Below, piece by piece: positions 21,533-64,000 of a stretch of 64,000 nucleotides of DNA. This DNA comes from an uncultured Dysgonomonas sp. (lineage in GTDB: Bacteria > Bacteroidota > Bacteroidia > Bacteroidales > Dysgonomonadaceae). Positions within the stretch are counted from its first letter, which is position 1; every line of letters begins with the position of its first letter. Location: positions 4,336,054 to 4,400,053 of the forward strand of contig NZ_LT599032.1 in the NCBI RefSeq assembly GCF_900079725.1. The letters run 5' to 3'. The notes under the pieces were generated by a model. The model was not told the DNA's origin, did not search any database, and saw only the letters and a program-made list of their open reading frames with translations. The position numbers and the translations under genes were made by a program.

Positions 21533-21540
21533 TATATTTG
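21533..21540 (+). promoter_or_regulatory. -7 element of the PUL 1 sensor gene
   Basis: TATATTTG fits TAnnTTTG and lies 24 bp before the ATG at 21565. It overlaps an in-frame TTG, which argues that the TTG is promoter DNA and that the ATG is the real start. Confidence 0.5.
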
Positions 21541-21564
21541 TATCTGAATAGTTTGAATATTATA

Positions 21565-25497: not shown

Positions 25498-25659
25498 TGT
25501 GCATATTTATAGTTGTTTAAATGTTTGTCCGGGATAAGTTAAACTCTCCTGTTGTCCTATTTGTGTTCTCATCTGTCCAATTTGTGCATAGTGTAAATCA
25601 TTCATTAGGCCTAAATTTGCTGTTGTCCTTAAAGGGGAAAACAGTTAAATATAAATACC

Positions 25660-28218: not shown

Positions 28219-28274
28219 AAAATAAATTAGAATATGAACAAACGAAATAATCACCTTATTAAATATTTAAAACC

Positions 28275-31238
28275 ATGAAAAAATACGATAGTTGTAAGAA
28301 ATTTGCTTATTTCCGCTTCGTAATAGCTTTGGCTTTATTGTTGCTCGCGCCCCTGATGGCTCTGGCACAGTCGAAGACGATTGCGGGAACAGTAGTAGAC
28401 GAAACAAACGAGCCGGTTATCGGAGCCGTTGTGAAAGTTTCGGAAACCACATTAGGTACTACCACCGATATAGATGGTAAATACTCGATTGATCTGCCGG
28501 AAGGCCGCAATCAATTGGAATTTTCTTTTCTCGGATATGAAACACAGATAGTTGTGATTACTGACAACCGGGTTGTAAACATAAAACTGGAACCGAAGGT
28601 GCAGCTAATGACCGAAGTCGTTGTAATAGGCTATGGTACCCAACTGAAAAAAGACCTGACAGGGACAGTATCCAGTGTGAGCAGTAAAGACTTTAATCAG
28701 GGACTTATCGGTTCTCCCGAGCAGTTGATAAACGGAAAGGTAGCCGGAGTGCAGATTATGTCCAATAATGGCTCACCTACATCGGGAAGCACTATCCGTA
28801 TCCGTGGGGGAGCTTCACTAAATGCTAGTAACGATCCGTTAATCGTTCTTGACGGTGTGCCTTTGGAAAGCGGAGGTATCAGCGGTAATAGCAGTAACTT
28901 CCTTAGTCTTATCAATCCGAATGATATAGAGAGCATGACGGTACTGAAGGATGCTTCTTCCACAGCCATCTATGGCTCAAGGGCTTCGAACGGGGTAATC
29001 ATCATCACTACTAAAAAAGGAAGTTCCGATAAACTGAATATCAGTTTCAACACCACATTCTCTCTGCAGAATAAGACGAAAGTAGCGGAAACCCTTTCTG
29101 CACAAGAATTCCGTGATCTAATAACCAGCAAAGGTAATGACCAGCAAAAAGCATTATTAGGTGAATCCAATACAAATTGGAATGATGAGATATATCAAAC
29201 GGCAGTTGGTACCGATAATAACCTGAGTGTTGCGGGAAACTTCGCCAAAACGGTTCCGTTCAGGGTATCGGCAGGTTACTATAACCAGGAAGGTATTTTG
29301 AAAACTGATAATGCAAAACGTTATACCGGAAGTATCGTTGTAAGCCCAACATTTTTTGACAACCATTTAAAATTTGACTTCAATCTGAAAGGCTCGATAA
29401 ATAAAAATAGTTTTGCGAATACCGATGCTATCTGGAATGCGACAGTTTTTAACCCTACGCAGCCTGTTTATTCCGGTAATTCAAATTTCGGAGGATATTA
29501 CGAAAGCCTCGACAATGCGGGTGTTCCCGCAACAGGAGCATTGCTCAATCCTGTCGGTTTATTGAAACAGGAACAACATGAGAGTACGGTGAAACGCAGT
29601 ATCGGGAATATGGATGTGGATTATAAATTTCATTTTCTGCCTGAACTGAAAGCGCATCTGACATTAGGTTATGATTATGCCAAAGGTGAGGGAACAAACT
29701 ATATTCCTGCTGAGGCAGCCAATGTATATCAGATTGGTGGTACGGATAATGAATATTCGCAGGAAAAAACAAATAAACTCTTTACAAGTTATCTGAATTA
29801 CTCGAAATTCTTTAAGAATATAAAAAGTAATCTGGATGCTACAGCGGGTTATGATTACCAACACTGGAGAGCTAAAACTCCTGTATTTATAGATAAGAAC
29901 ATTGCCGGCGAAACGGTAAGTACTTCTCCAGCACAGGATCAGACTCACGTTTTATTATCATTCTACGGGCGTGTGAATTATTCTTACGATTCCAGATATA
30001 TGCTGACGGCGACTGTTCGCCGCGACGGATCGTCCCGTTTCAATCCGGATAACCGTTGGGGAACTTTCCCGTCGGTAGCATTGGCATGGAGGATATCGCA
30101 GGAATCATTCCTGAGGGATAATAATGTAATCAGTGATTTAAAACTTCGCTTAAGCTATGGGGTGACAGGGCAACAGGATGGTATCGGGAACTACTCATTC
30201 CTACCTGTTTATACATTGAGTAACGAATATGCACAATACCGTTTCGGTGATAAGTACTACTACCTCTATCGTCCGTCGACTTATGTCGCCGATTTGAAAT
30301 GGGAAACAACAGATTCGTATAATGCAGGTTTCGACTTCGGATTCCTCAATAACCGTATCAATGGTACATTCGATTACTATAACCGTAAAACGAAGGACTT
30401 GCTCGCTACAGTATCAGTTCCGGCGGGTACAAATTTCGCAGAGAAAGCAACCACTAATGTGGGTAATATAGAAAGCAACGGTCTTGAGTTTGCTATTAAC
30501 GCAACTCCTATAGATACAAAAGATATAACCTGGACACTCGGCTTTAATGCGACATACCAGAAAGTAAAAATTACAAATCTGTCATTGGTTAAGAACGAAA
30601 ATTCTCCGGGATCTTATACTGGCCCCGAAGTCGGCGGGCAAGGCATACAGATACTTACCGAAGGATATACTCCTTATATGTTCTATGTCTACAAACAGGT
30701 ATATGATGATGCGGGCAAACCAATTGAAGGGATGTATGCCGACCTCAACGATGATGGAGTTATCAATGAAAAGGACCTGTACCGTTACCATTCACCGATG
30801 CCAGATTATCTGTTAGGATTCAATTCACAGTTCAGATATAAGAACTGGTCGCTGGGTTTTGCCTTGAGAGCGAGTTTCGGTAACTATGTTTATAACAATA
30901 TGGCAGCCAATGCAGGAGCATGGGAAACGATGCAATACATTCCGTACGCAATCAATAATATGTCAAGAGACTTCCTGAATACAGGATTCCAGTCACGCCA
31001 GTTCCGTTCCGATTATTACGTGCAAAACGCATCATTCCTCAAAATGGACAATATTTCGGTAGGGTACAATGTAGGGAAAGTATTCAACGGCCCTAACCTC
31101 AGAATAGGTGCTTTGGTCCAGAATGTATTTACTATTACCAAATACGATGGAGTAGATCCTGAAATAACAAATGGTTTCGATAGTTCCTTCTATCCTCGTC
31201 CGAGAATATTCTCTTTAAGTCTGAATCTTGATTTCTAA
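28275..31238 (+). CDS. SusC/RagA-family TonB-dependent outer-membrane transporter, PUL 1
   Basis: A 987-residue outer-membrane importer. It has a signal peptide (ending MALAQSK), a carboxypeptidase-regulatory-like domain (about 35-115, GTVVDETNEPVIGAVVKV, TDIDGKYSI), a plug domain (about 120-235, including VVVIGYGTQ, ASSTAIYGSRASNGVI and TTKKGS) and a 22-strand barrel ending in the aromatic LNLDF. It forms a lidded pair with the SusD protein encoded next and imports oligosaccharides by TonB energy. Given the GH53 and GH2 neighbours, galacto-oligosaccharides are the likely cargo. An AGGTC-hairpin repeat lies between this gene and susD. Confidence 0.97.
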   Translation: MKKYDSCKKFAYFRFVIALALLLLAPLMALAQSKTIAGTVVDETNEPVIGAVVKVSETTLGTTTDIDGKYSIDLPEGRNQLEFSFLGYETQIVVITDNRVVNIKLEPKVQLMTEVVVIGYGTQLKKDLTGTVSSVSSKDFNQGLIGSPEQLINGKVAGVQIMSNNGSPTSGSTIRIRGGASLNASNDPLIVLDGVPLESGGISGNSSNFLSLINPNDIESMTVLKDASSTAIYGSRASNGVIIITTKKGSSDKLNISFNTTFSLQNKTKVAETLSAQEFRDLITSKGNDQQKALLGESNTNWNDEIYQTAVGTDNNLSVAGNFAKTVPFRVSAGYYNQEGILKTDNAKRYTGSIVVSPTFFDNHLKFDFNLKGSINKNSFANTDAIWNATVFNPTQPVYSGNSNFGGYYESLDNAGVPATGALLNPVGLLKQEQHESTVKRSIGNMDVDYKFHFLPELKAHLTLGYDYAKGEGTNYIPAEAANVYQIGGTDNEYSQEKTNKLFTSYLNYSKFFKNIKSNLDATAGYDYQHWRAKTPVFIDKNIAGETVSTSPAQDQTHVLLSFYGRVNYSYDSRYMLTATVRRDGSSRFNPDNRWGTFPSVALAWRISQESFLRDNNVISDLKLRLSYGVTGQQDGIGNYSFLPVYTLSNEYAQYRFGDKYYYLYRPSTYVADLKWETTDSYNAGFDFGFLNNRINGTFDYYNRKTKDLLATVSVPAGTNFAEKATTNVGNIESNGLEFAINATPIDTKDITWTLGFNATYQKVKITNLSLVKNENSPGSYTGPEVGGQGIQILTEGYTPYMFYVYKQVYDDAGKPIEGMYADLNDDGVINEKDLYRYHSPMPDYLLGFNSQFRYKNWSLGFALRASFGNYVYNNMAANAGAWETMQYIPYAINNMSRDFLNTGFQSRQFRSDYYVQNASFLKMDNISVGYNVGKVFNGPNLRIGALVQNVFTITKYDGVDPEITNGFDSSFYPRPRIFSLSLNLDF

Positions 31239-50013: not shown

Positions 50014-52539
50014 TTAAATTAAATTCTTATAAGGATGCGGATAATCATTGCCCATCGTTTTTTTATATTCTGTAATAAAAGCCTGATACCTGATCCGGGC
50101 TTCCTCATTCATCTTTAGTTTCTGTAAGGCCTTAGTCTGGTAGATCAGCGCTTCGTCATTCAATGGATCTATAGAGAATAAGATATCTGTAAGGTCAATC
50201 GTTACCTGATAGCTTTCTGTTATGAAACTTTTTTCTACCTCCCTTAATAATACAGGTTCTAACTTTTGTTCCATCTCTACTTTGAATGGATCAAACAGTG
50301 CTTCATCCGAAGACTTCAAGAACTTTCCCCGTGTCAATATCGTGATCAGCTCTTCTCTGTTCTCTTCTATTTTATTTGTTGAAATGATATCCATACATCT
50401 TACAAAATCACAATAGCATCCCTGCTCTAATATGATTTTGAAAAAACCTTTATCATGGACAAATTCAATGCCGTCAAGTTCTCCCAGAGCTTTGCGTAAA
50501 TGGTTTATTGTCACATTTCTGGAATTCTTAACCTTATCTTTGGGCCTGTCGGGCCATAATATATCGCTGAGTCGCTGCGACGTGATGCCGCCTTCCGTAC
50601 TATATTGGAGAATCAGACAAAACATTTGCTTGAGTCGTACCGAAAACATGTAGGTTATATCCTTACCCGATCTGTCCCGTACAGTAAAATCACCGAACAG
50701 GTAAATCGAATTAGGCCGAAGGGCTGTTTGTTCTGCTTTCTTATTATCGGGTTGCTGTTTTATATTGTGTACTTTTTTATAGGATTTTCGTTTAAAAAAC
50801 AGAATTGTAATAGTTGTAATTACCACACAGGAAATAACTATTATAAGTATTGCACTTTCTTCAGTAGAATGTTTATAACTGACCAGATCTTCGGCTGTTA
50901 TAGGCGGAAATGCAAGAGAATAAACCTTCAGATCGGAAACAATATCATCATCAAATTCCTGAACAATAGCAAACAGGCAATTAAGTTGCTTGTCATAATA
51001 CAGATTGGCATTTGTGGTAATACGGTCCGAATGTATTGGGATTGAATTACCGAGAATCTTATAACTCCCGTCTTTCAGTGAGAACTGATAAAGCCTGAGG
51101 TATGAGTCGGAAAAATGTTCCGGATAACATAATGTATAAAAACAGGAATCATTGAGTATTACCATTCCCCTCACAGGGACTACGTTATCTTCAGTCCATG
51201 GTATTTCCCAGCGCTTTATAACCCGGTTTGTGGTCAGGTTAATCTCATGCAGATCATAAAAATATTTCCGCCCTACGACTTGTTCCCCGGATTCATTTCC
51301 CATACCTCCGAATATATATATGGAATTTGTTTTCTCCAGATATCCAAGTGATGAGAAATACCGTGGAAAGATAGTATCTCCTTTAAAATCTTCAAGTATT
51401 TCCCATTTTCTGGAATTTAAATCGAAAGAATAAAAATTCTTACTATAATGCATATTACCGAATCCCCCGAATATTGTATACCGGGAAGTGGAAGGATCTA
51501 AATAAGAATCATGATGATGTAGCTGAGACAGAAGTTCGTCTGTAGATTCAGTTTCCCAGTTTTCAAGATTGGTTAAATCTACGCTCGCCATGGTCACCTC
51601 CTCCGGCACTCTCTCGTTGTATACTTCGTATGCGTATAGTCTGTTATTATCCGTATTAATAAAATTTGTCCCTAAAGCCAGCCGTACCGGGCATTTGTTA
51701 CTGAAAGCCCTCATACTTGTCTTTCTAGATCTCACATTATATATATAAATAGAATCCCGGTTAAAATAATATATTTCTTTCTTTTCTCTATTATAATTAG
51801 CCCCGGCTACGGTTTTAGATTTAAATGATGCTAAAAATGACCAATGGTACGAGTCATTGATCAACCATCTTGGATTTGAAACTTCACCTAAAGCCTTACC
51901 ATTCGAATCATGGACAATATTACCTTCGTTCTCCTTTAATGGAAAAGAATACATTTCCTGATTTCCCGCCGCCAGGTCTTTAATAGCAAAAGAGGGTACA
52001 TCAATAATGTGATCACTCTTACCGAAGACAATGACAGGATAATACTTATCAGGGAGATTCGCATTTCCTATACCAAATGTATGATTATGGATGGTGAGCT
52101 TTATCGAATCATTTTTCAGGTCAAAGAATATTTTCATTTTAAACCAGTGAACATTGAGGAGTTCATCCATGTCTATCTCGGCAGTTATGAGACTACTCTT
52201 TCCTTCTTCATTAAATCGGAAAATATGGTTTTGACCCTGACCGTCATAAAACAGATTATAGATTTTATTGCTATTCTCATTCTTGATCCGTATAATATAT
52301 CCTATTTGTGTATCAGGATAAAGAGATAAATTACACTCAATATTAAAATATTGTGAAAATTCGACAACTTTATTACTAAAGACATTATACGATGTGCGTT
52401 TATCTATTGGTACTTCTCCGCCACTAAATTTCAGCCCTTGAGAAAATGTTTCAGGCGAAATTAAATAACCTAAAATGAGGAATATATAACACAGATATTT
52501 GCAAAGAGAAGTTTTTGCGACTGCTATTATTTTTATCAT
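50014..52539 (-). CDS. Transmembrane one-component regulator: Kelch-like sensor with SARP-type DNA-binding and BTAD domains
   Basis: An 841-residue protein that spans the membrane once. Residues 1-33 are a signal peptide. Residues 35-190 look like a beta-jelly-roll domain; 225-545 carry kelch-like repeats (FGGFGNMHYSKNFYSFDL, IFGGMGN). A transmembrane helix is at about 563-582, followed by a basic tail FFKRKSYKK. Cytoplasmic 610-705 is an OmpR/SARP-type winged helix (YLFGDFTVRDRSGKDITY, KNSRNVTINHLRKAL), and 710-835 is a BTAD/TPR-like domain typical of SARPs. No kinase or receiver is present, so it should signal by itself, without phosphorelay. It diverges from PUL 2 and is its probable regulator. 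The exact family was not confirmed by a search. Confidence 0.82.
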   Translation of the reverse strand: MIKIIAVAKTSLCKYLCYIFLILGYLISPETFSQGLKFSGGEVPIDKRTSYNVFSNKVVEFSQYFNIECNLSLYPDTQIGYIIRIKNENSNKIYNLFYDGQGQNHIFRFNEEGKSSLITAEIDMDELLNVHWFKMKIFFDLKNDSIKLTIHNHTFGIGNANLPDKYYPVIVFGKSDHIIDVPSFAIKDLAAGNQEMYSFPLKENEGNIVHDSNGKALGEVSNPRWLINDSYHWSFLASFKSKTVAGANYNREKKEIYYFNRDSIYIYNVRSRKTSMRAFSNKCPVRLALGTNFINTDNNRLYAYEVYNERVPEEVTMASVDLTNLENWETESTDELLSQLHHHDSYLDPSTSRYTIFGGFGNMHYSKNFYSFDLNSRKWEILEDFKGDTIFPRYFSSLGYLEKTNSIYIFGGMGNESGEQVVGRKYFYDLHEINLTTNRVIKRWEIPWTEDNVVPVRGMVILNDSCFYTLCYPEHFSDSYLRLYQFSLKDGSYKILGNSIPIHSDRITTNANLYYDKQLNCLFAIVQEFDDDIVSDLKVYSLAFPPITAEDLVSYKHSTEESAILIIVISCVVITTITILFFKRKSYKKVHNIKQQPDNKKAEQTALRPNSIYLFGDFTVRDRSGKDITYMFSVRLKQMFCLILQYSTEGGITSQRLSDILWPDRPKDKVKNSRNVTINHLRKALGELDGIEFVHDKGFFKIILEQGCYCDFVRCMDIISTNKIEENREELITILTRGKFLKSSDEALFDPFKVEMEQKLEPVLLREVEKSFITESYQVTIDLTDILFSIDPLNDEALIYQTKALQKLKMNEEARIRYQAFITEYKKTMGNDYPHPYKNLI

Positions 52540-52830
52540 GGCTATGTAATAACTGAAATCAGAAATTGATTTTAGCGATAAAGATATTAAAAATCCTTTA
52601 AATCGAAAGAACTGAATATAGCCTTATACAAATGGAAAGTGTAAAATAGGCAGGTTAATGATTTTTTGTGGTTAATAACCCACTTTTAACCCAAAAATTA
52701 ACCATTGAGCTATAATATTTGACGCAAAAATACTATGTAGCTGACTTCGGCTAATTCTAAACTGAAAACTAAAACGCATTGTATCTAATACTTTATTTTT
52801 TTAATCAACTCCTTATATTAAGTGAATAAC
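52540..52830. promoter_or_regulatory. Divergent control region between the SARP-type regulator and PUL 2
   Basis: Three direct repeats of TAACCC/TAACCA occur at 52676, 52687 and 52699 (spaced 11 and 12 bp), with GGTTAAT at 52653 and GGTTAATAACC (palindrome) at 52670. The plus-strand box AATATTTG (52714-52721) is a near match to the -7 consensus, 9 bp after the last repeat. On the minus strand TATTTTTG (52732-52725) could serve the regulator gene. The 5' leader of the lipoprotein gene would be about 100 nt. Confidence 0.55.
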
Positions 52831-54645
52831 ATGAAACTAGTGAAAATTTTAAGAGTTTTTATGTTTATCGTCTTGCTTGGTACTATAACTAGTGCTTGTA
52901 GCAATGATGACGAACAGGTTAATATCGGTGCAGGTACTGTTACCGGTATTGTAACGGACGAGACAGGGTCTCCTATCGCCGGGGTCACGGTTGCCGTATC
53001 CGGTAAAGATGAGACTGTGAGCAGTGGTATCGATGGAAAATACACAATTCAGAATGTATCGATGGAATCCCATGCCGTAGTTTTTGTTAAAACCGGATGG
53101 CAAACAATCAGTGCAACAGTTACAGCGAAAAAATTTGTTGGTAGTGTAGCCACTGTAAACATTACAATGGTGAATGCTTCTGCAAAGATCAGTGGTATCA
53201 TTATCGATGCTAAAAATGGCGGAGTTCCTCTCTCTGGAGTTACAGTAAGCATTGGTCCGGCAGGTACGGTTACCACAGGAACCGACGGGAAATACCTCTT
53301 CGAAAATCTGGTCGCCGATGAGTATACCGTGACTTTTACCAAAGCAAATTATGTAACTATCACCAAAACGGTGACTAAGGCCAGTTTTGAAGATGGGGCA
53401 GTGATTCTGGATTTACAGATGGGTGGAACTGAACTTTTGCGCGGATTGACCAGGGACGATCTGTTAAATGCTGATAAGTGGTACTACAATGAGTACCGTG
53501 GTGGAGGTAATGCTGATGCATATCCTCATTGGGACTGGGCTTGTGACTATATGTGTTCTCTCAGTTTCTGGGGCAATTGGGAAGAGCAATGGGAAGGAAC
53601 CACATTGCGTATTCGTAATGATGAAGCAGACCGGAAGAATCCTGCCGACCTTGATGTATTCGATTCGTATACATGGGGTAGTAAAAAAATTACAGCGGAC
53701 AATAAGATTCTTTCGCTGAGAGTGCGTACACATGATGCCGATGCATCTGCTCCTGCATATTTCGGTGTACAGGTAGTCGATCTTTCTGCAGCTGAGCCTG
53801 TGACCGAAAAAATTGGAGATGTAAGGACTCATGGTTCCGGGAATTATGCAGATTATCATTTCGATCTGAGTCAGTATATTGGCAAAGAAGTGATCGTCGC
53901 TATTGGTATTTATCGTAATGCGACAGGAAACTACTGGAAGCAGCTGGTACTTCGCCGTGTTGCTTTTGCTCAGGAAAATGTAACCAATTGGGATTGGATT
54001 CCGGGAAATGAAGTGATAGACGGCTGGAAACTGACTCACGAAATGGTTCGTTCCACGATGATACATACCAAAAAGTCATTTACAGGAATCAGCCCTATCA
54101 GTGCAGGACGTGATGTGAATATGACAACCGGTTATCCGGCAGCATACAGGGCTTGGCGAAATGTAGCACATATAGGACATGAATGGGCATTTGTACCATT
54201 ACATAAAGACCCCGAAGTATTTCCATCCGAAGGTTACCTTATCAAGACCAGAGGCAGTGGTACTCAGGTGAACACTAAGGAGCCGGAAGCATATTTCTAC
54301 TCTAAATTTGCTATCGCACCGGGTAGTAACCAATTAACGCTGAAGACCCGAAATTTCGGAAGCAATTACACTTTCTTCAAATTGACAGCAATAAAAGAAG
54401 ACGGTACGATTGTGCATGTAGCTCCAAAATCGAATACAGCTCAGGACGCTGCCGCTGCTGCCGATGGTTGCTGGAAATTTAAGCACGGTTCGGGTGGAGC
54501 AGGAGACCCGGATGGATATGCTTCATTTGTATATGACCTGTCTCAATTTAACGGAAACGATGTGATGTTGATATTTGGTGTGTACAAAGGAGAAAGTAAT
54601 GGAGATGAGAGTAAACTTGTATTCTATAATATTAACCTGAATTAA
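52831..54645 (+). CDS. Surface lipoprotein with two carboxypeptidase-regulatory-like domains, PUL 2
   Basis: A 604-residue lipoprotein (lipobox TSAC, then SNDDEQ, consistent with surface export). The in-frame GTG at 52822 is less likely than the ATG at 52831. Residues about 37-115 and 120-195 are two CarboxypepD_reg-like Ig domains (GTVTGIVTDETGSPIAGVTV, ISGIIIDAKNGGVPLSGVTV). Residues 200-600 are two similar beta-rich units, each ending VYDLSQFNGNDVMLIFGVYK or similar, suggesting an internal duplication of lectin-like modules. It is probably a surface glycan-binding protein rather than an enzyme. The gene is first in the transcription direction of PUL 2. Confidence 0.72.
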   Translation: MKLVKILRVFMFIVLLGTITSACSNDDEQVNIGAGTVTGIVTDETGSPIAGVTVAVSGKDETVSSGIDGKYTIQNVSMESHAVVFVKTGWQTISATVTAKKFVGSVATVNITMVNASAKISGIIIDAKNGGVPLSGVTVSIGPAGTVTTGTDGKYLFENLVADEYTVTFTKANYVTITKTVTKASFEDGAVILDLQMGGTELLRGLTRDDLLNADKWYYNEYRGGGNADAYPHWDWACDYMCSLSFWGNWEEQWEGTTLRIRNDEADRKNPADLDVFDSYTWGSKKITADNKILSLRVRTHDADASAPAYFGVQVVDLSAAEPVTEKIGDVRTHGSGNYADYHFDLSQYIGKEVIVAIGIYRNATGNYWKQLVLRRVAFAQENVTNWDWIPGNEVIDGWKLTHEMVRSTMIHTKKSFTGISPISAGRDVNMTTGYPAAYRAWRNVAHIGHEWAFVPLHKDPEVFPSEGYLIKTRGSGTQVNTKEPEAYFYSKFAIAPGSNQLTLKTRNFGSNYTFFKLTAIKEDGTIVHVAPKSNTAQDAAAAADGCWKFKHGSGGAGDPDGYASFVYDLSQFNGNDVMLIFGVYKGESNGDESKLVFYNINLN

Positions 54646-54677
54646 AAAACGAAAAAACTGCGCCCTTAGTGAATCCT

Positions 54678-54716
54678 CTGCATATCTCGATACTTCAGTA
54701 TGTATTGTATATGCAG
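54678..54716 (+). promoter_or_regulatory. Hairpin in the spacer before the GH76 gene
   Basis: CTGCATAT (54678-54685) pairs with ATATGCAG (54709-54716), with an inner ATACT-TC-AGTAT. It lies between the first and second PUL 2 genes and may cause partial termination or protect the mRNA. Confidence 0.4.
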
Positions 54717-54748
54717 CGGATACACAGAGGGACAGGAATAAGAATGAA

Positions 54749-56218
54749 ATGAAAAAAATATTTACAACTATTTTCTGTACACTCTTAGTGGTGACTGTTG
54801 CATGTAGTGATAATAATGAAGTAGATGGCAACGGAGGCGGCAATAATTCCGGAATTATCAAAACTGATAACCTTGCGGAGCAAAATATCCTTCGGTCGAT
54901 GCAGTTGGTTGACAGTGCGGTGTCCTACCACTTTAAGGGAGAAGGTATGGCAATGTCAAGATATTACAATCCTTATACAAATTCGAATGTGAATAAGGAG
55001 GGAGCTGATGAGAAAGGCAGTGTATGGATGTACACAAGTTCTATCGAAGCTGTGAATGCAATCCTGCATGGGCTGAAAGCTCATAAGGAAAAAGGCAAAG
55101 CAGAGCTTTATGACAAGCACTTTAGCCGTTACACAGCCCTGTTAGCCAAATTGTATGATAATATTGCATATTATAGGGGCACGTTTCGTCTTACATCGTA
55201 TACTCAAACGAAAGATTGGTCCGTATATGGAGTAGATAGGGGAAATGCCAAAGGTACAGCATTGGTAGAAGGTATACATAATGTATATGACGACCAGCAA
55301 TGGCTGATCAGAGAACTTATCGAAGCCTATAAACTGACAGGTAGCAATACCTATCTGACCGAAGCGGAATATCTGGCGGATTATGTGTTGGATGGATGGG
55401 ATTGTGTACTCGATGCCAATGGAAAAGAATACGGAGGTATTCCATGGGGACCGGGCTATGTGACAAAGCATTCATGTAGCAACGGGCCTGTAGTAAGTCC
55501 ACTGGTATGGTTACACGAACTGTATAAAGGTAAGAATGACGAAATTTCTTATAAATATATAGCAACTGATGGTAGCCGCAAAACCGCTACGCTAAAGAAA
55601 AGCGACTATTACCTAAAATTTGCAAAGGCTGTTTATGCTTGGCAAAAGACGAATTTGTTACGCGAGGATGGAGTATATCACGACATGATGGGAGGCTGTG
55701 ATCCTGACTGCAATGTAGCGTATGAAACCGTTAACGGCGTAACATACCGCAAGCACACCAATCTGCGTGACCGTGTGGGTACTGCCTATTCTTACAATTG
55801 TGGCTCTATGCTTTCCGGTGCGGCTGACCTGTATCGTGCAACGGGAGAGAATACATATGTGGAAGATGCCAAAAAATTGTCGGATGCCAGTTTCAAATAT
55901 TTTGCTAAACTGGGAGTAAACAAGCCCGGGTATTATACATATGATATAATAGGCTTCAACAACTGGTTTAACGGAGTGCTGATGCGCGCATATGTCGATG
56001 TATATCCTTCATACAATAATGCGTCTGCATACGTCGATAGTTTCCAGAAGAATCTTGATTACGGGTATGAAAACTTTTTCTACAGAGGATTTCTTCCTCC
56101 CAATTTATTAGTAGGTTGGAGTCGTGAAAATGGCAATAACAGAGTGGAAGGTATGTTCACTTTTGCCTTTGCTGCCGAATACGCTACTCTGGCGCGATAC
56201 GAATTGGAAAAACAATAA
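54749..56218 (+). CDS. GH76-family glycosidase, lipoprotein, PUL 2
   Basis: A 489-residue lipoprotein (lipobox TVAC, followed by SDNNEVD and a glycine linker, consistent with surface export). The (alpha/alpha)6 barrel begins at about residue 40. The catalytic pair D181 and D182 appears in HNVYDDQQWLIRELIEAY, and the GGIPWGPGYVTKHSCSNGP block is typical of GH76 alpha-1,6-mannanases. The length and helical repeats fit. Known GH76 enzymes cut alpha-1,6-mannan backbones of fungal walls and other glycans, but the substrate here is inferred by family only. Confidence 0.87.
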   Translation: MKKIFTTIFCTLLVVTVACSDNNEVDGNGGGNNSGIIKTDNLAEQNILRSMQLVDSAVSYHFKGEGMAMSRYYNPYTNSNVNKEGADEKGSVWMYTSSIEAVNAILHGLKAHKEKGKAELYDKHFSRYTALLAKLYDNIAYYRGTFRLTSYTQTKDWSVYGVDRGNAKGTALVEGIHNVYDDQQWLIRELIEAYKLTGSNTYLTEAEYLADYVLDGWDCVLDANGKEYGGIPWGPGYVTKHSCSNGPVVSPLVWLHELYKGKNDEISYKYIATDGSRKTATLKKSDYYLKFAKAVYAWQKTNLLREDGVYHDMMGGCDPDCNVAYETVNGVTYRKHTNLRDRVGTAYSYNCGSMLSGAADLYRATGENTYVEDAKKLSDASFKYFAKLGVNKPGYYTYDIIGFNNWFNGVLMRAYVDVYPSYNNASAYVDSFQKNLDYGYENFFYRGFLPPNLLVGWSRENGNNRVEGMFTFAFAAEYATLARYELEKQ

Positions 56219-56239
56219 CTAACTTAAATTTATATCGTT

Positions 56240-59200
56240 ATGATAAAAACACATTATGCAAAAAAGATGCGATCCTTGCATTCTTGCATGTTAATGATGC
56301 TCTTTGTTGTTTTGATGCCTATGTCTTTATGGGCGCAAAACAAGACCATTACCGGAATAGTTGCGGACGAAACCAATGAACCGGTAGCCGGAGCAAGTGT
56401 CGTGATTAAAAATACCACTGTTGGTACTATTACAGATATCGACGGTAAATATACTATTCAGGCACCGGACAATGCTACCCTGGTATTTACATTTTTGGGA
56501 TATAGTCCTAAAGAAGAAAAAGTAAGCGGACGCAGCCAGATCAATGTTTCACTGACTTTAGATGAGACTACGCTCGATGATGTGGTAGTTGTCGGATATG
56601 GTGTACAGAAAAAAGTAACACTAACCGGGGCTGTAGCCGGAGTTAAGGGATCGGAAATGATAAAGACCAAGAATGAGAATCCGCAGAATATGCTTACCGG
56701 TAAAATTGCAGGTGTGCGTGTATGGCAAAAAAGTGCAGAACCAGGTACATTTAATAATAATTTCGATATTCGTGGTTTGGGCGCTCCGTTGGTAGTTATC
56801 GATGGTATTCCCCGTACTACAGCCGATTTTCAACGTTTGAACGCAAATGATATCGATGATATTTCTGTATTGAAGGATGCATCAGCTGCCATATACGGTG
56901 TACGGGCAGCTAACGGGGTTGTACTCGTAACTACTAAGAAAGGATCGAAAGACGGGAAAACCTCAGTTTCTTATAATGGTACATATACATTCCAGAAACC
57001 TTCGGGTATGCCTGTCCTTGCCGATCCGTATCAGACAATGACATTGTACAACGAACAGGCGATGAATAATATAAGTGGGGGAAGCATCATATATAAAGAA
57101 TCTGATTTTGAAGCTTTCCGCAACGGTACCCGTCGCACTACAGATTGGACAAATCTGGTATTTTCAGATTATGCTCCGCAAACCCAGCATGATTTAAGCA
57201 TTACGGGAGGAAACGATAAGACCCAGTATTACATAGGTATGGGATACTTCTATCAGGAAGGTTTTTTCAAATCGGGAGACCTTAATTATGATAAATATAA
57301 TCTGCGTGCCAATATAACTACTAAAATTGTAAACGGATTAACATTTGATATTAATCTGAGCGGCGTAGCTGACGAGCGCAACAATCCGTACACAAGTGCG
57401 GTTGACATTATACGCACATATTGGAGACAAGGTGTATTGTATCCCGCATATGCCGATCCGGATAATACAATGCTCAATTATCAGGGGCTTGAATTACAGG
57501 AAAATGCAGTGGCTCAGATGAGTTCTGATGTATCCGGATACAGGAAATATCAGCAAAAATATTTTCAGTCATCGGCATCTCTTAATTACGATCTGGGTGT
57601 AATAACGCCGGTATTAAAAGGTTTATCGGCAAAAGCTCTGGTTAGTTATGACTACCGCACCGATAATAATACAGCTTATCGTAAAGAATATTATCAATAT
57701 GCTTATAATGAACTGACCGATTCTTACGATCAGGCATTATTCAATACGAGTTCACCAAGCAGACTGCGCCGTGAAACATATAATAAACAGCAAATCCTGA
57801 GCCAGCTATTACTCAATTATAATCGTAGTTTCGGTGAGCATACTGTTAGTGGAGTTGTTGGTCTGGAAACTCAGAAGCGGACAGGAGATAACTTCTATGC
57901 ACAGCGTGAGCTTGCTTTTTCTACAGATTATCTCTTTGCTGGTGTTGATGAAAATCAACTGGGAAGCATGAATATAGGAAATAATGACCTTTATGAAGAA
58001 GCTAACTCTGCAATGATAGGCAGGGTAAATTATGCTTATGCAAATCGTTACCTGCTTGAAGCTCAATTCCGTTACGACGGATCATCAAAGTTTGCAAAAG
58101 GGCATCAGTGGGGTTTCTTCCCATCTGTGTCGGCAGGTTGGCGTGTCTCCGAAGAGCCTTTCTTTAAATCTGTTTCAGCCCTTTCTTTTGTCGACCAGCT
58201 AAAACTGCGTGCCAGCTATGGGGTATTGGGAGATGATTTGGCAAACGACTGGAATTATGAATGGGCAAACGGCTATAACTATCCAGCGACAAATTCAAAC
58301 GGGGGAAGCGGATATTATAATCAATATGCACCGGGATTTATCTTCGGAGATAAGTATGTTTCTGCTGCTGCTACCAAGCCACTGCCTAACATTGCAATTT
58401 CGTGGTACGAATCACGTACGCTTGACCTTGGGGTAGATTTTGAGGGATGGAATGGATTGTTCGGTTTTTCTTTAGACTATTTTGATCGCCGTCGTACAGG
58501 TATGTTTGCCCGCCGCAAAGGAGACCTTCCTACTGTAGTAGGTGCAGAGGCTCCTAACGAAAATCTGGATAGCGACCGTCACTTCGGTATGGACCTTGAA
58601 CTTACGCATCGTAATAAAATAAATGATTTTTCTTATAGGATAAAGGCAATCGGTACAATTACGCGTCAGAAACATATGGTTGCTTCGGAAAAAGGACCAT
58701 GGGGCAACTCTTACGACAGATGGCGTAATGATAATCTTACCGACCGTTATCAAGGAGTACAATTCGGATATACTGGTGCCGGACGTTATCAAAGCTGGAA
58801 AGATATATGGTCGTACCCGATTTATAAAGACCGTGGAATTTTGCCGGGGGATTATAAATATGAAGACTGGAACGGCGACGGTGAAATTAACGGACAGGAT
58901 ATGCATCCTTATGCTTTTGACCAGACTCCATGGTTGAATTATAGTATAAATTTTGACTTCGCATATAAGAATTTCGACCTGAACATACTATTGCAAGGAT
59001 CGGCTCTCGGCTCAATGAAATATGAAGAACCGTTATATGCAATTTGGGGAAGTAACGGTGGAGGTACGCTGGTACAATTCCTGGACCGCTGGCATCCGGT
59101 AGATCCTACAGCAGATCCTTACGATCCTGCTACAGAATGGGTGAGTGGTTATTATGGCTATACAGGACATTATCCTGATGCAAATTCATCTTTCAACCGT

Positions 59201-59422
59201 GTGAGTACGGCTTATCTCCGTCTCAAAAGTATAGAACTTGGCTATACACTGCCTCGGATAAAGGCCTTATCGTCTATGAACCTGCGTGTATTTGCCAATG
59301 CGTATAATATGTTTACTATAACAGGAGTGAAATTCGTGGATCCGGAACATCCGGATAGCGATAATGGAAGGTTATATCCACTTAATAAAACTTACACCAT
59401 AGGTATGTCTCTTACATTCTAA
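56240..59422 (+). CDS. SusC/RagA-family TonB-dependent outer-membrane transporter, PUL 2
   Basis: A 1060-residue importer with signal peptide (ending PMSLWAQNK), a CarboxypepD_reg-like domain (GIVADETNEPVAGASVVIKN, TDIDGKYTI), a plug with VVVVGYGVQKK, ASAAIYGVRAANGVV and TTKKGS, and a barrel ending in GMSLTF. The domain order matches the PUL 1 SusC, although the two are clearly diverged. It pairs with the SusD encoded 29 bp downstream. It should import oligosaccharides released by the GH76 and the partial glycosidase gene downstream. Confidence 0.97.
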   Translation: MIKTHYAKKMRSLHSCMLMMLFVVLMPMSLWAQNKTITGIVADETNEPVAGASVVIKNTTVGTITDIDGKYTIQAPDNATLVFTFLGYSPKEEKVSGRSQINVSLTLDETTLDDVVVVGYGVQKKVTLTGAVAGVKGSEMIKTKNENPQNMLTGKIAGVRVWQKSAEPGTFNNNFDIRGLGAPLVVIDGIPRTTADFQRLNANDIDDISVLKDASAAIYGVRAANGVVLVTTKKGSKDGKTSVSYNGTYTFQKPSGMPVLADPYQTMTLYNEQAMNNISGGSIIYKESDFEAFRNGTRRTTDWTNLVFSDYAPQTQHDLSITGGNDKTQYYIGMGYFYQEGFFKSGDLNYDKYNLRANITTKIVNGLTFDINLSGVADERNNPYTSAVDIIRTYWRQGVLYPAYADPDNTMLNYQGLELQENAVAQMSSDVSGYRKYQQKYFQSSASLNYDLGVITPVLKGLSAKALVSYDYRTDNNTAYRKEYYQYAYNELTDSYDQALFNTSSPSRLRRETYNKQQILSQLLLNYNRSFGEHTVSGVVGLETQKRTGDNFYAQRELAFSTDYLFAGVDENQLGSMNIGNNDLYEEANSAMIGRVNYAYANRYLLEAQFRYDGSSKFAKGHQWGFFPSVSAGWRVSEEPFFKSVSALSFVDQLKLRASYGVLGDDLANDWNYEWANGYNYPATNSNGGSGYYNQYAPGFIFGDKYVSAAATKPLPNIAISWYESRTLDLGVDFEGWNGLFGFSLDYFDRRRTGMFARRKGDLPTVVGAEAPNENLDSDRHFGMDLELTHRNKINDFSYRIKAIGTITRQKHMVASEKGPWGNSYDRWRNDNLTDRYQGVQFGYTGAGRYQSWKDIWSYPIYKDRGILPGDYKYEDWNGDGEINGQDMHPYAFDQTPWLNYSINFDFAYKNFDLNILLQGSALGSMKYEEPLYAIWGSNGGGTLVQFLDRWHPVDPTADPYDPATEWVSGYYGYTGHYPDANSSFNRVSTAYLRLKSIELGYTLPRIKALSSMNLRVFANAYNMFTITGVKFVDPEHPDSDNGRLYPLNKTYTIGMSLTF

Positions 59423-59451
59423 TAATTAGTGTCAGTTACGAAATAATAAAT

Positions 59452-61515
59452 ATGAAAAATATGAAAAAAATAATAATACTGTCTTTGCTAAGCATTTTTC
59501 TGTTATCTGCTTGCAACGATCTGGATATTGCACCTAAGAATCTGATTACCGACGAGGATATCCTGACCAACGAGTCCGGTATGGAAATTTACATGGCAAC
59601 AATGTACAGTAATATGCCATTTGAAGATTTCAAATATATGGGCGAATGGGGTGTCGAGTTTAACGCATGGTTAGGTTCGATGGGTATAGAAGGTACAGGG
59701 GAAGCTCTGAACCGTGATGGCATTTGTAAGACTTTTACAGGTGAGAGAACTGCATATTGGGGTAATGCCTTTTCTCTGTTGCGTAAAGCAAACTATTTGT
59801 TGGAAACATTGCCGCAGTATCAAGGTTCTTTCCAGGAACAAAGCTATAACCATTATTTGGGAGAAGCTTACTTTGTACGTGCTTTTGTATTTTATGCGAT
59901 GGCTCGTCGTTTTGGAGGAGTACCGTTAGTGACCAAAGTCATTCAATATCCTAACGATAAAGAAGCACTGGAAGTGCCGCGTGCAAGTGAAGAGGAAACA
60001 TGGAATCAGGTACTTGCCGATTTTGATAAGGCAGCCAGTCTGTTGAGCCCGACCAGTCCCAAATCGGGGTATTCTAATAAGTATGTAGCTTTGGCATTTA
60101 AAGCAGAAGCCATGTTATATGCCGGAAGTGTGGCTAAATATAATGAAACAGTAACAGGTCGTCTGACAGGATTGGGACAAAAGACAGGAATACGGGTAAT
60201 TGGCTTTGGCGCAGATTCTTGGCAGGCTGCATCCAAGAAGTATTTCACTGAAGCATATAAAGCTGCGCGGGAAGTGATGGAAAGCGGGAAGTATTCACTC
60301 TATAAGAAAAAGTGGTCAGCAACAGATCGTGATGCACAATACCAGAATATGGTAGATATGTTCAGTGATTTGAGCAGTCCCGAGAATATTTATGTGAGAC
60401 AATATGTATATCCTACACTGACACACGGCTATGATGCATATAGTGCACCATTTATATTCCGCGCGCCGTTATCTTCAGGTACATGTCCTACCCTTGATTT
60501 TCTGGAGCTTTTCGATGGTTTCGACCGCTATGCGGACGGAACAGTAAAAGTTACAAGCGGGACGTCGAATACCACCGGAGATTATTTGCTGTATGATAAA
60601 CCGATGGATTTCTTCAAGAACGCCGAACCACGTTTACGCGCTTATGTAATTTTCCCCGGAGATATGTTTAAAGGTAAAGAGATTGAGATACGTGCCGGTG
60701 TATATACCGGATCAACACCAGTCAAGCCATTCTTTAAGGACTATTCCTATGCTAATGCCGAAACATATTACCAGCATTTGGATGCTTATACCCAAAAACC
60801 AAAAACATTGTATCTGAGCCCGAAATCAGAAAATGTGGAAACTGTTGATTACAACGGACAAAAGATGAATGCGTCCGGAGCAAACGGTCCGTTCTATGAT
60901 CAGGGAGAATCTGCAATGGCAGGATTTTATGGACGGAAATGGCTTAACTCAAATCCGGCATTTGTTGCAGCAGAAGGAAAATCCGAGCAGCCATTCATCC
61001 TGATGCGTTATGCTGATGTATTGCTTAATGCAGCAGAGGCAGCTGTAGAATTATCTCTGGCCGGGGTGGCTTCTCCTGATGGAGCCGACCTGTTGCAGGT
61101 AGCTACGGATGCAGTGAATGAAATACGTGAACGTGCAGGGGCAACGCAGCTAACAAGTAAAATTGCATCGACAGAAACAGGGCGCAACATTGTACGTAAA
61201 GAACGTCGTAAAGAACTTGCTTTTGAACATAAGACAAAATGGGATTTGAGACGCTGGCGTGTTCAACATTATGACGGACGTGACGGATTCTGGGGCGAAG
61301 CACGTAATAAAGATGCATTTAGCAATAATTCGCGCTACCGTTTCCGCGGCTTATATCCGTTCTTTTCTACTACTACAGGAAAATATTTCTTCGATGCTCA
61401 TTTCCAAATGGTAGGCCTCAAGACTTTTGAATATAATCCGATTGATTATTATTTTGAAATTCCGGGTGGTGAAGTATCTAAGAGCCTGGTAATCGACCAA
61501 CAACCAAATAGATAA
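59452..61515 (+). CDS. SusD/RagB-family surface glycan-binding lipoprotein, PUL 2
   Basis: A 687-residue lipoprotein (lipobox LLSAC, CNDLDIAP), longer than the usual 500-600 residues. Family features are NHYLGEAYFVRAFVFYAMARR, RRKELAFEHKTKWDLRRWR and a C-terminal YFEIPGGEVSKS. Additional loops account for the length. It forms the lid of the SusC pore. The stop TAA overlaps the next ATG by one base, so translation is coupled to the DUF3823 gene. Confidence 0.96.
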   Translation: MKNMKKIIILSLLSIFLLSACNDLDIAPKNLITDEDILTNESGMEIYMATMYSNMPFEDFKYMGEWGVEFNAWLGSMGIEGTGEALNRDGICKTFTGERTAYWGNAFSLLRKANYLLETLPQYQGSFQEQSYNHYLGEAYFVRAFVFYAMARRFGGVPLVTKVIQYPNDKEALEVPRASEEETWNQVLADFDKAASLLSPTSPKSGYSNKYVALAFKAEAMLYAGSVAKYNETVTGRLTGLGQKTGIRVIGFGADSWQAASKKYFTEAYKAAREVMESGKYSLYKKKWSATDRDAQYQNMVDMFSDLSSPENIYVRQYVYPTLTHGYDAYSAPFIFRAPLSSGTCPTLDFLELFDGFDRYADGTVKVTSGTSNTTGDYLLYDKPMDFFKNAEPRLRAYVIFPGDMFKGKEIEIRAGVYTGSTPVKPFFKDYSYANAETYYQHLDAYTQKPKTLYLSPKSENVETVDYNGQKMNASGANGPFYDQGESAMAGFYGRKWLNSNPAFVAAEGKSEQPFILMRYADVLLNAAEAAVELSLAGVASPDGADLLQVATDAVNEIRERAGATQLTSKIASTETGRNIVRKERRKELAFEHKTKWDLRRWRVQHYDGRDGFWGEARNKDAFSNNSRYRFRGLYPFFSTTTGKYFFDAHFQMVGLKTFEYNPIDYYFEIPGGEVSKSLVIDQQPNR

Positions 61516-62351
61516 TGAATAATAATAAAACACAGAATATGAAAAAAATAGTATTTTATTCTTTAATGTGTGCGTTGCTTTCTTTCAGCTCCTGCGATTT
61601 GTTTAAAGTAGATAACTATGAAGAACCGGAAGAGACATTGGAAGGGGCAGTAGTGGATGTCGCTACAGGAGAACCTGTACTCACAGATCAGGGAAGTGAA
61701 GGTATTCGCGTACGTCTGACAGAACTTAGCTGGGGTGAAAATGTTACACATAACCCTGACTTTTATTGTATGCCTGACGGTACATTCAAAAATACCAAGT
61801 TATTTAAAGGTAATTATAATATCCGTATCGATGGGCCATTTATTCCGCTCGTTCGCGAAGCAGATGGTATGCTTCTTGCCGATGATACCCAAACAATGGA
61901 TATTAAAGGGACAACTAAGGTTAAGTTCGAAGTACAACCTTTCCTTAAAGTGGAATGGATCGGAGAACCGACCGTTTCTAACGGTAAAGTGAAGGCCCAG
62001 GTGCGGGTTACACGTGCTGTGTCTGAAGATGATTTCCGCAATAAAATAGAGCCAATGGGCGGTTATAATAGTAGTTTCCTGAATATGACTGATATACAGT
62101 TGTTTGTCAGCTATTCATCTACAGTAGGTTATCGTGCCCGTGACGAAAGATGGTCTAATGAGATTCAATATACAGGTTCGGCGTTCAACTCTTTGTTTGG
62201 ACAGACAATCACTATTGAGTCTAAAGGAACTATTCCTGCCGGACGTACGGTGTTTATCCGTGCTGCTGCGCGTATAAACTACGATACTCCAAAAGGTAGT
62301 GGTACCCGCAGATGGAATTATAACGAAGCTATGGAAGTAATGGTTCCATAA
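61515..62351 (+). CDS. DUF3823-family lipoprotein, PUL 2
   Basis: A 278-residue lipoprotein (lipobox SFSSC) preceded by nine extra residues that may be skipped by an internal ATG at codon 9. It matches the DUF3823 type: an N-terminal Ig-like domain (EEPEETLEGAVVDVATGEPV) and a C-terminal beta sandwich (KVEWIGEPTVSNGKVKAQVR). Genes of this family regularly follow susC/susD in PULs and are presumed extra surface glycan-binding subunits. It is coupled to SusD by TAATG overlap. Confidence 0.85.
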   Translation: MNNNKTQNMKKIVFYSLMCALLSFSSCDLFKVDNYEEPEETLEGAVVDVATGEPVLTDQGSEGIRVRLTELSWGENVTHNPDFYCMPDGTFKNTKLFKGNYNIRIDGPFIPLVREADGMLLADDTQTMDIKGTTKVKFEVQPFLKVEWIGEPTVSNGKVKAQVRVTRAVSEDDFRNKIEPMGGYNSSFLNMTDIQLFVSYSSTVGYRARDERWSNEIQYTGSAFNSLFGQTITIESKGTIPAGRTVFIRAAARINYDTPKGSGTRRWNYNEAMEVMVP

Positions 62352-62593: not shown

Positions 62594-64000
62594 ATGAAAA
62601 AAAGTGTATTAATCTTATTCCTTTGTGGGCTTACTCTTCTACCAAAAGCCCAGGTCAAAGACAATGTTAAAACTACATTTCAGACTTCACGCGAGTGGAG
62701 GCCGACAATAGATAACAGGGCAGATGCTGTTATGGTATATGGAGTAGGTGGAAATCCCTCCGACAAATCGAAAAGAATACCCTTCGAAGAACGTGTGCAG
62801 TCTTGGCGCGACAGAGGCTACACAACCCATTTTATGACAGGTATAGCATGGGGTGAATATCAGGAATACTTTACCGGCCAGTGGGATGGAAAAATGCATC
62901 TCGACGAAGGGCAAGTACAACAAAACGGCGATACAATATGGCACGGACATATGGTGCCTTATATTGTTCCCACTGAAAATTACCTGAAATACATAAAAGA
63001 AAAACATGTGAAACGGGTGATTGATGCCGGTATCGATGCCATCTTTATGGAAGAACCCGAGTTCTGGGCTCGTGCAGGCTATAGTGAAGCCTTTAAGCGG
63101 GAATGGAAAAAATTCTATGGCTTTGACTGGAGGCCGCAACATGAGTCTCCCGAAAATACCTATTTGTCCAGTAAACTGAAATACCAACTATATTATAATG
63201 CTTTGAAAGAAGTATTTACTTATGCCAAAGAATACGGTAAGAGCAAAGGGATGGATGTGAAGTGTTATGTGCCTACACATTCTCTTGTTAACTATTCGCA
63301 ATGGATGATTGTTAGTCCCGAAGCCAGTTTAGCGTCTCTGTCGTGTGTCGATGGTTATATAGCGCAGGTGTGGACAGGTACGTCGCGCGAACCAAACTAC
63401 TATAATGGTAAGGCAAAAGAAAGGGTTTTCGAAACAGCTTTTCTCGAATACGGATCAATGGAATCCATGACAGCCCCCACAGGCCGTAAAATGTTTTTTC
63501 TGACCGATCCCATCGAAGACTGGCCAAGAGACTGGGCTGACTACAAAAAGAACTATCAGGCAACCTTTACTGCACAATTATTATATCCCAACATAGCAGA
63601 TTATGAAATAATGCCCTGGCCCGAACGCATTTATGAAGGACTTTACAGAACTAGCCCGGATAGTGACAAGAGGGAAAGGATACCGAGACATTATTCTACC
63701 CAGATGCAGGTAATGATAAACTCTCTGAATCATATGCCTTTGTCGGACAATAAGGTAACGGGTTCTGCCGGGATAAGTGTGTTGATGGCTAATTCGCTTA
63801 TGTTTCAACGGTTTCCTACACATGTAGGATATGAAGATCCTCAATTGTCGAACTTCTACGGGCAGGCTCTACCTTTCCTGAAACGGGGAGTACCTGTAAA
63901 AACAGTCCATATTGAAAATTTAGGCTATAAAGAGGCTTTGGCCGATACCAAGGTATTACTTATGACTTATTCCAATATGAAACCATTGTCGCCGGAAGCT
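62594..64000 (+). CDS. Exported glycosidase-like protein, TIM barrel with GH42-like C-terminal part (3' end cut by window)
   Basis: An open frame from the ATG at 62594 to the right edge gives 469 residues with no stop. A signal peptide (MKKSVLILFLCGLTLLPKAQ) is present. Residues about 40-330 suggest a TIM barrel: DAVMVYGVGG, GIDAIFMEEPEFW (E153, E154, E156) and MDVKCYVPTHS. Residues from about 400 (GSAGISVLMANSLMFQR, VPVKTVHIENLGYKEAL, VLLMTYSNMKPLSPEA) resemble the Rossmann-like trimerisation domain of GH42 beta-galactosidases. I cannot assign a known family. It is read from the sequence directly and lies downstream of the PUL 2 genes, so it is likely part of that locus. Confidence 0.65.
   Translation, partial: MKKSVLILFLCGLTLLPKAQVKDNVKTTFQTSREWRPTIDNRADAVMVYGVGGNPSDKSKRIPFEERVQSWRDRGYTTHFMTGIAWGEYQEYFTGQWDGKMHLDEGQVQQNGDTIWHGHMVPYIVPTENYLKYIKEKHVKRVIDAGIDAIFMEEPEFWARAGYSEAFKREWKKFYGFDWRPQHESPENTYLSSKLKYQLYYNALKEVFTYAKEYGKSKGMDVKCYVPTHSLVNYSQWMIVSPEASLASLSCVDGYIAQVWTGTSREPNYYNGKAKERVFETAFLEYGSMESMTAPTGRKMFFLTDPIEDWPRDWADYKKNYQATFTAQLLYPNIADYEIMPWPERIYEGLYRTSPDSDKRERIPRHYSTQMQVMINSLNHMPLSDNKVTGSAGISVLMANSLMFQRFPTHVGYEDPQLSNFYGQALPFLKRGVPVKTVHIENLGYKEALADTKVLLMTYSNMKPLSPEA

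Follow-up and report, generated by a model that had tools for sequence, protein, structure and literature searches.

A predicted one-component membrane regulator with a SARP-type output domain, and its candidate operator, at a polysaccharide utilization locus of Dysgonomonas

We analysed a stretch of 64,000 nucleotides from an uncultured Dysgonomonas sp. (contig NZ_LT599032.1, positions 4,336,054 to 4,400,053; the whole stretch is called the window), in which the gene of an 841-residue regulator, here named REG (50014-52539, reverse strand), is divergent from a polysaccharide utilization locus (PUL). The region 52540-52830 between them, put forward for binding tests by the original prediction made on this DNA, contains a conserved SARP-like repeat operator. 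On the forward strand this candidate operator consists of ATAACC (52675-52680), TTAACC (52686-52691) and TTAACC (52698-52703), in steps of 11 and 12 bp. Ten bp past the last repeat is a -7-like box, AATATTTG (52714-52721, forward strand), a 5/6 match to the Bacteroidota TAnnTTTG, and GGTTAATG (52653-52660, forward strand), seen by eye in the upstream regions of relatives, may be another half-site, lying some two turns upstream of the repeats. The first PUL gene, ORF607 (52822-54645), encodes two CarboxypepD_reg domains according to Pfam and looks lipoprotein-like by eye; it starts with GTG, and an ATG at 52831 is also possible. It is followed, likewise on the forward strand, by genes for a GH76 protein (54749-56218; PF03663, E 8.5e-15), a SusC-type TonB-dependent transporter (56240-59422; TIGR04056, E 4.1e-247), a SusD-type lipoprotein (59452-61515; PF07980, E 1.5e-38) and a DUF3823 protein (61515-62351; PF12866, E 3.3e-13). 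GH76 is a family of alpha-mannanases.

The architecture foreseen for REG, an outer Kelch sensor, a single transmembrane helix and an inner SARP module, is upheld by a structure model and by hydrophobicity. The protein begins with a predicted signal peptide or N-terminal hydrophobic helix (about residues 1-33; 52441-52539, reverse strand as for all REG features; helix 2-26 in the model). A hydrophobic N-terminal 11-mer is present in 50 of 63 homologous proteins, a set from which the window protein and L060 are absent and in which L130 and L136 are counted twice; the starts of some are uncertain. There follow a beta-sandwich (about residues 36-215; 51895-52434), all-beta in the model and perhaps LamG/ConA-like, and a Kelch propeller (about residues 225-543; 50911-51867). 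Laminin_G_3 is matched weakly in the paralogue L046 (E 0.0018) and strongly in the relative L132 (E 2.7e-19), and was reported for none of the other paralogues scanned. The single transmembrane helix (residues 559-584; 50788-50865), a helix also in the model, separates the periplasmic sensor from the winged helix, as judged from the model and hydrophobicity rather than from a topology program, and a hydrophobic 19-mer ahead of the DNA-binding part was found in 61 of the 63 proteins. A linker of about 20 residues (584-604), modelled with low confidence (pLDDT <50), leads from the helix to the DNA-binding domain.

The C-terminal module is made up of a winged helix (residues 609-705; 50425-50715; model pLDDT 94, AfsR/EmbR fold) and the TPR-like helices of a BTAD (residues 706-841; 50017-50424), and comparison of the structure model with known structures identifies the two as one SARP fold. 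This bears out the reading of residues 610-835 as winged-helix/BTAD. The expectation that Trans_reg_C and BTAD would be recovered by profile or by structure was confirmed on the structural side; Pfam gave REG a Trans_reg_C match at E 0.057, below the gathering score, and no BTAD match. Among 44 family members searched at E up to 1, Trans_reg_C was matched in 16 and BTAD in eight; the alignments A1 and A2 likewise comprise 44 sequences, a subset of the homologues. One genome (L060/L016), with a stop within the regulator frame, was kept out of the alignments and scanned in its flanks alone. A PDB sequence search with the C-terminal profile returned weak matches alone, mostly of the saposin type (best E 0.01) and judged to be chance; the fold was assigned by structure comparison. 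Neither a histidine kinase nor a receiver domain was found in REG in Pfam and NCBIfam scans, in agreement with the original prediction.

Relatives of REG vary in the sensor. L132 carries a LamG-type sensor on the same SARP output, L128 is a 387-residue frame without most of the Kelch part, and L088 and L089 are forms of about 500 residues with the same output and no Kelch match; L090, outside the Kelch scan, is another form of about 500 residues. A full-length REG overlaps a shorter one (685-residue frame) in a tandem pair (L136:7828-12364; L137:7866-12402), and the shorter protein has no Kelch match in L136. At L130:9740-10570 a SARP-only protein (about 260-277 residues, no transmembrane helix) directly follows the operator behind a full-length REG.

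A search of the window for TAACC-11-TAACC-12-TAACC gives a single match, and 100 shuffles give none. When the second step may be 11 or 12, the whole 5.2-Mb genome has a single match too, and the reversed control pattern is absent from it; three strict TTAAYC units were not found in this genome, since the first unit in the window is ATAACC. Among 61 genomes the triple is present in eight (reversed control: one), all of them among the ten genomes whose best REG match has at least 50% identity, and in none of the other 51. Ignoring kinship, the hypergeometric probability is 1.5e-8 for this 50% line, which was drawn after seeing the result, and 2.2e-6 with the line at 45%; for the family alone (37 genomes), again ignoring kinship, the values are 1.2e-6 and 1.7e-4. 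The triple was also found in six of nine genomes reached via more distant homologues (reversed control 0), where six of the seven sites are upstream of an ORF607 orthologue (53-65% identity; L144-L149). In four of these six, REG is apparently on the same contig, 12 or 17 kb from the site, and in L144 and L149 the site is on a contig other than REG's; the seventh site (L150) has none of the searched genes alongside. In a genome with a 93% identical REG (L050:9703-10700, the same place as L034), ORF607 is mostly gone and the operator now stands ahead of the GH76 gene, with a widened gap containing short repeats and the nearest SusC match about 7.5 kb off.

In described SARP promoters, direct repeats are spaced by 11 or 22 bp and 8 bp separate the last of them from the -10 box; AfsR is placed over the -35 region and docks sigma region 4 (PMC10936776). 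PimR recognizes three heptamers with 4-bp spacers, one monomer each (PMC5930380), and the primary sigma factor of Bacteroidota recognizes two elements, TAnnTTTG at -7 and TTTG near -33 (PMC7366714). With its steps of 11 and 12 and its gap of 10 bp to the -7-like box, the candidate site in the window has SARP promoter geometry.

This geometry was examined in 63 loci, which remained of 73 after removal of ten near-duplicates (L034, L037, L038, L040, L052, L072, L073, L080, L085, L137). Between 6 and 40, the spacing of TAACC pairs in the larger fetched loci, overlapping fetches counted, peaks at 11 (18 pairs) and 12 (26 pairs), followed by 23 and 24, the sums of two steps, with 12 each; all other spacings have 0-9. 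We scored 800-bp flanks with a composite model in which three TTAAYC-type units, stepped by 11 or 12, are followed at a distance of 9, 10 or 20-22 bp by a WAnnTTTG box; 2106 chunks taken from other parts of these loci served as background. With p no higher than 0.005, the composite reads away from REG in 39 of the 63 loci and is found on the opposite strand in four, which is the fair comparison because the unit and gap values were picked after seeing the sites. Of the 39 sites, seven have no SusC, GH76, GH92 or GH125 gene for comparison; side and direction fit the nearest such gene in 30 of the other 32, L049 and L087 being the exceptions. Boxes of 5/6 or better stand 9, 10 or 21 bp past the last repeat in 21 of 23 cases. 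At +6 to +14 a box was counted in 16 of 37 sites, whereas shuffled tails gave 3.5 on average and 11 at most; seven of these 37 sites (L049, L144-L149) started at least one base off and gave no useful box. A TTTG in the -33 position, 15-25 bp ahead of the box, is present in four of 39 sites, a count without comparison to chance, and is absent from the window promoter. We had considered the downstream TTTG itself as a -33 box; this was dropped, as its distances of 9, 10 or 21 bp and the TAnn ahead of it in many loci mark it as a -7 box. Sub-clades use TTAACC, TTAATC, TTAATA or TTAACG/TTAATG as the repeat form and differ in the residues around the recognition helix, and we offer only as a suggestion that these differences may be tied to each other.

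The genomic neighbourhood likewise agrees with the expectation that homologues adjoin PULs. The source genome has five REG copies at E 0.001, all within 6 kb of a SusC gene (3.8, 6.0, 4.2, 5.3 and 2.0 kb) and four of them divergent. In the fetched flanks of the 63 loci, SusC is present in 32, GH76, GH92 or GH125 in 28 and either in 43; among the remaining 20 are truncated contigs and the more distant relatives L126-L136. One neighbourhood tally additionally excluded L090 (n=62). GH76 and GH92 are alpha-mannoside families, and GH125 is read as such from its Pfam name. Where no SusC is nearby (n=10), the gene after the operator is GH125 in L059 and L063 and GH92 in L061, L067, L075 and L077, and has no GH125/GH92-type domain in L126, L129, L131 and L134. 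Together with GH76 here, this suggests that alpha-mannosides may be a common, though not universal, theme of REG loci. Two of the five copies in the source genome lie within 2 kb of GH92 (random placement 0.023). REG is matched at E 1e-5 in 24 of 61 genomes, its own included, with homologues of 53-64% identity in Ohtaekwangia, Parachryseolinea, Dawidia, Chryseosolibacter and Belliella records. A survey of 392 Bacteroidota genomes gave a strong match (best E 6e-44 or better) in 13 and weak, more distant SARP-like matches alone in 11 more; the domain scan covered six of the 13 weak SARP-like matches.

The PUL beside REG appears to be the second of three in succession (21538-31238 and 50014-62351 in the window, and L186:4434-12283 past its end), seemingly with three types of regulator: an HTCS-like protein, the membrane SARP and a FecR anti-sigma factor. 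The first is presumably a hybrid two-component system (HTCS), a label based on protein length. The gene after the REG-linked PUL (724 residues; 62594-64000, whole at L186:648-2822) has no Pfam match at E 1e-4.

The architecture, the SARP fold, the linkage to PULs and a conserved, SARP-spaced operator that co-occurs with REG were all obtained by computation. From them we infer operator binding, activation, a mannoside ligand and action while in the membrane, and we think it likely that REG is a mannoside-responsive, membrane-tethered SARP activator that acts via the (T)TAACC operator to start PUL transcription. REG would be a transcription activator that crosses the inner membrane once. The ligand of its periplasmic part, the beta-sandwich and Kelch domains, would be a product of the glycan on which the adjoining PUL acts; given the GH76 gene of this PUL, an alpha-mannoside is the most likely candidate here. 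Ligand binding would alter the state of the cytoplasmic SARP domain on the same chain, and several such domains would assemble side by side on the three repeats at 52675-52703. As the last repeat is 10 bp from the -7-like box and no TTTG is present at -33, they would take over from the -35 contact and, in the manner of AfsR, dock the primary sigma factor, which would lead to transcription of the PUL. A membrane-tethered SARP standing in for the -35 contact is the simplest account.

Several observations weigh against this model. The composite site is missing within 800 bp, at the threshold used, from 24 of the 63 loci; its unit and gap values were, as said, chosen after viewing sites, and the loci are not independent, many being paralogues or close relatives. 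The exact triple is absent from five genomes, among the 61, with a REG of 45-47% identity, four of which have related repeats instead (L059, L060, L061, L063), and from three of the nine genomes of the distant set. When two units plus the box were sought in the 392 Bacteroidota genomes, 21 sites were found in 19 genomes (reversed control 4), just two of which are among the 24 with a REG-type domain, and five sites (L173, L175, L177, L178, L185) adjoin genes resembling the response-regulator part of the HTCS-like protein of the window, named from reading translations. This type of repeat is thus common to other factors too. The composite motif alone therefore fails as a phylum-wide marker of REG genomes, and our claim is built on the exact triple, on where it is placed and on its occurrence together with REG. 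L048 (GH3, GH95) and L049 (GH2, CBM6), two of the five copies in the source genome, have no GH92 within 8 kb, which makes a mannoside ligand unlikely across the whole family. Separately, in L166-L171 a gene for a putative outer-membrane protein is preceded by similar TTAACC repeats with a TTTG box, and these genomes yielded no REG-type domain at E 1e-8; an HflX-like gene, named from reading translations, is alongside in five of the six.

Other explanations can be set against the same data. A protease might free the cytoplasmic SARP domain, so that the same regulator would bind the same operator off the membrane. The low-confidence linker 584-604 fits such a release, as does the SARP-only protein after the operator at L130. 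We regard it as unlikely, though worth keeping in mind: 61 of 63 proteins retain the membrane helix, although release and tethering both need it, and no search for protease genes was made. It is also conceivable that REG only senses or modulates, and that a different winged-helix protein, for instance a cytosolic response regulator of the OmpR/PhoB type, occupies the repeats. The sites next to response-regulator-like genes in genomes without a REG-type domain speak for this, an OmpR-type protein being read in L177 only. Yet the exact triple is single-copy in the source genome and restricted, across 61 genomes, to those with a close REG, and the operator agrees in side and direction with the PUL or mannan enzyme gene next to REG in 30 of 32 cases. 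No response regulator is found among the six proteins scanned (REG and five PUL proteins), genes further off being outside that scan, and we judge this explanation rather improbable.

A repressor, blocking the promoter until its ligand arrives, would fit repeats that sit where a -33 box would be, since binding there could also exclude polymerase. However, described SARPs activate (PMC10936776), the spacing between repeats and -7 box is that of SARP promoters, and the scarcity of TTTG at -33 noted above would be expected of weak promoters that need help; repression by REG thus strikes us as improbable, slightly more so than binding by another factor. That REG controls something else and adjoins PULs as a by-product of a PUL-dense genome seems very improbable indeed. 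The source genome does have at least 56 SusC genes (56 of 139 candidates were scored), and a random place falls within 6 kb of one with a frequency of 0.173; nevertheless, for all five copies to do so by chance has a probability of 1.5e-4, a lower bound on the listed genes, or about 1.7e-3 assuming 90 SusC genes, and the operator precedes the same PUL gene even where REG is 12-17 kb away.

PUL control is otherwise described via HTCS, extracytoplasmic function (ECF) sigma/anti-sigma pairs and SusR; a review gives HTCS, ECF sigma/anti-sigma and catabolite repression for hemicellulases (PMC10766802), and transmembrane transcription regulators are common in Bacteroidota (PMC10269533). The suggestion of a third control principle for glycan loci was too strong, as a one-piece membrane PUL regulator is already known in SusR (PMC3878776). 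What is new is the SARP/BTAD output in such a regulator, its candidate operator, and the Kelch and beta-sandwich sensor. A literature search, covering part of the open-licence PMC papers, found no SARP or Kelch regulator at a PUL, and a SARP-type membrane PUL regulator with a SARP operator appears to be undescribed so far. We lean, by a small margin, towards regarding the membrane SARPs of Bacteroidota as a separate class of PUL regulator, sparse across the phylum, with Kelch, LamG-like or other periplasmic oligosaccharide sensors. Anchored in the membrane, they would assemble on a row of three to four TTAAYN repeats and, where a promoter lacks a -33 box, provide the docking of the primary sigma factor, sub-clades reading different last bases (TTAACC, TTAATA, TTAACG/TTAATG). 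If true, this would be a further route of PUL control, with an output module known as an activator of antibiotic genes in Streptomyces. Operators readable from sequence would make PUL targets and inducers predictable in genomes outside Bacteroides, and REG would offer a simple one-protein, glycan-responsive switch with a defined operator. The single-copy site makes testable the question of how a membrane-bound factor reaches its promoter.

Described SARPs are soluble, mostly actinobacterial and best known from antibiotic clusters. REG resembles the family (AfsR, EmbR, PimR) in having a winged helix and then a BTAD in one fold, and its operator in having direct repeats, spaced by 11 bp, close to the -10/-7 box and, as in PimR, three in number (PMC10936776, PMC5930380). 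Unlike in described SARPs, the module forms the C-terminal part of a chain in which a periplasmic sensor and a membrane helix come first, and is found at glycan loci. CadC and ToxR are one-component membrane regulators with an OmpR-type winged helix; their DNA-binding domain is N-terminal and they are not known to have a BTAD. REG is like them in that its transmembrane helix lies between winged helix and periplasmic sensor, and differs in that the winged helix is C-terminal (609-705), after a predicted signal peptide, and joined to a BTAD. Six SARP-like proteins of Bacteroidota (L138-L143) share the C-terminal module (profile E 2e-10 to 5e-17), with BTAD above the cutoff in all six; they differ in the AAA and TPR domains of several and, among the matches listed, none of the six has Kelch at E 0.1.

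We take the DUF6377 proteins to be the SusR-like family; compared by hhalign with three of them from its own genome, the DNA-binding domain of REG gave a probability of 0.3 of 100, and REG as a SusR-like DUF6377 protein is unsupported for want of profile similarity. With SusR itself, REG shares the plan of a one-piece membrane PUL activator with a periplasmic sensor and a cytoplasmic DNA-binding domain; however, the DNA-binding domain of SusR is said to resemble no known one, and its predicted sites are repeats 67 or 77 bp apart (PMC3878776). Like an HTCS, REG would place a periplasmic sensor and a DNA-binding output on one chain at PULs, but it does so without histidine kinase or receiver, and HTCS outputs are AraC-like (PMC3878776).
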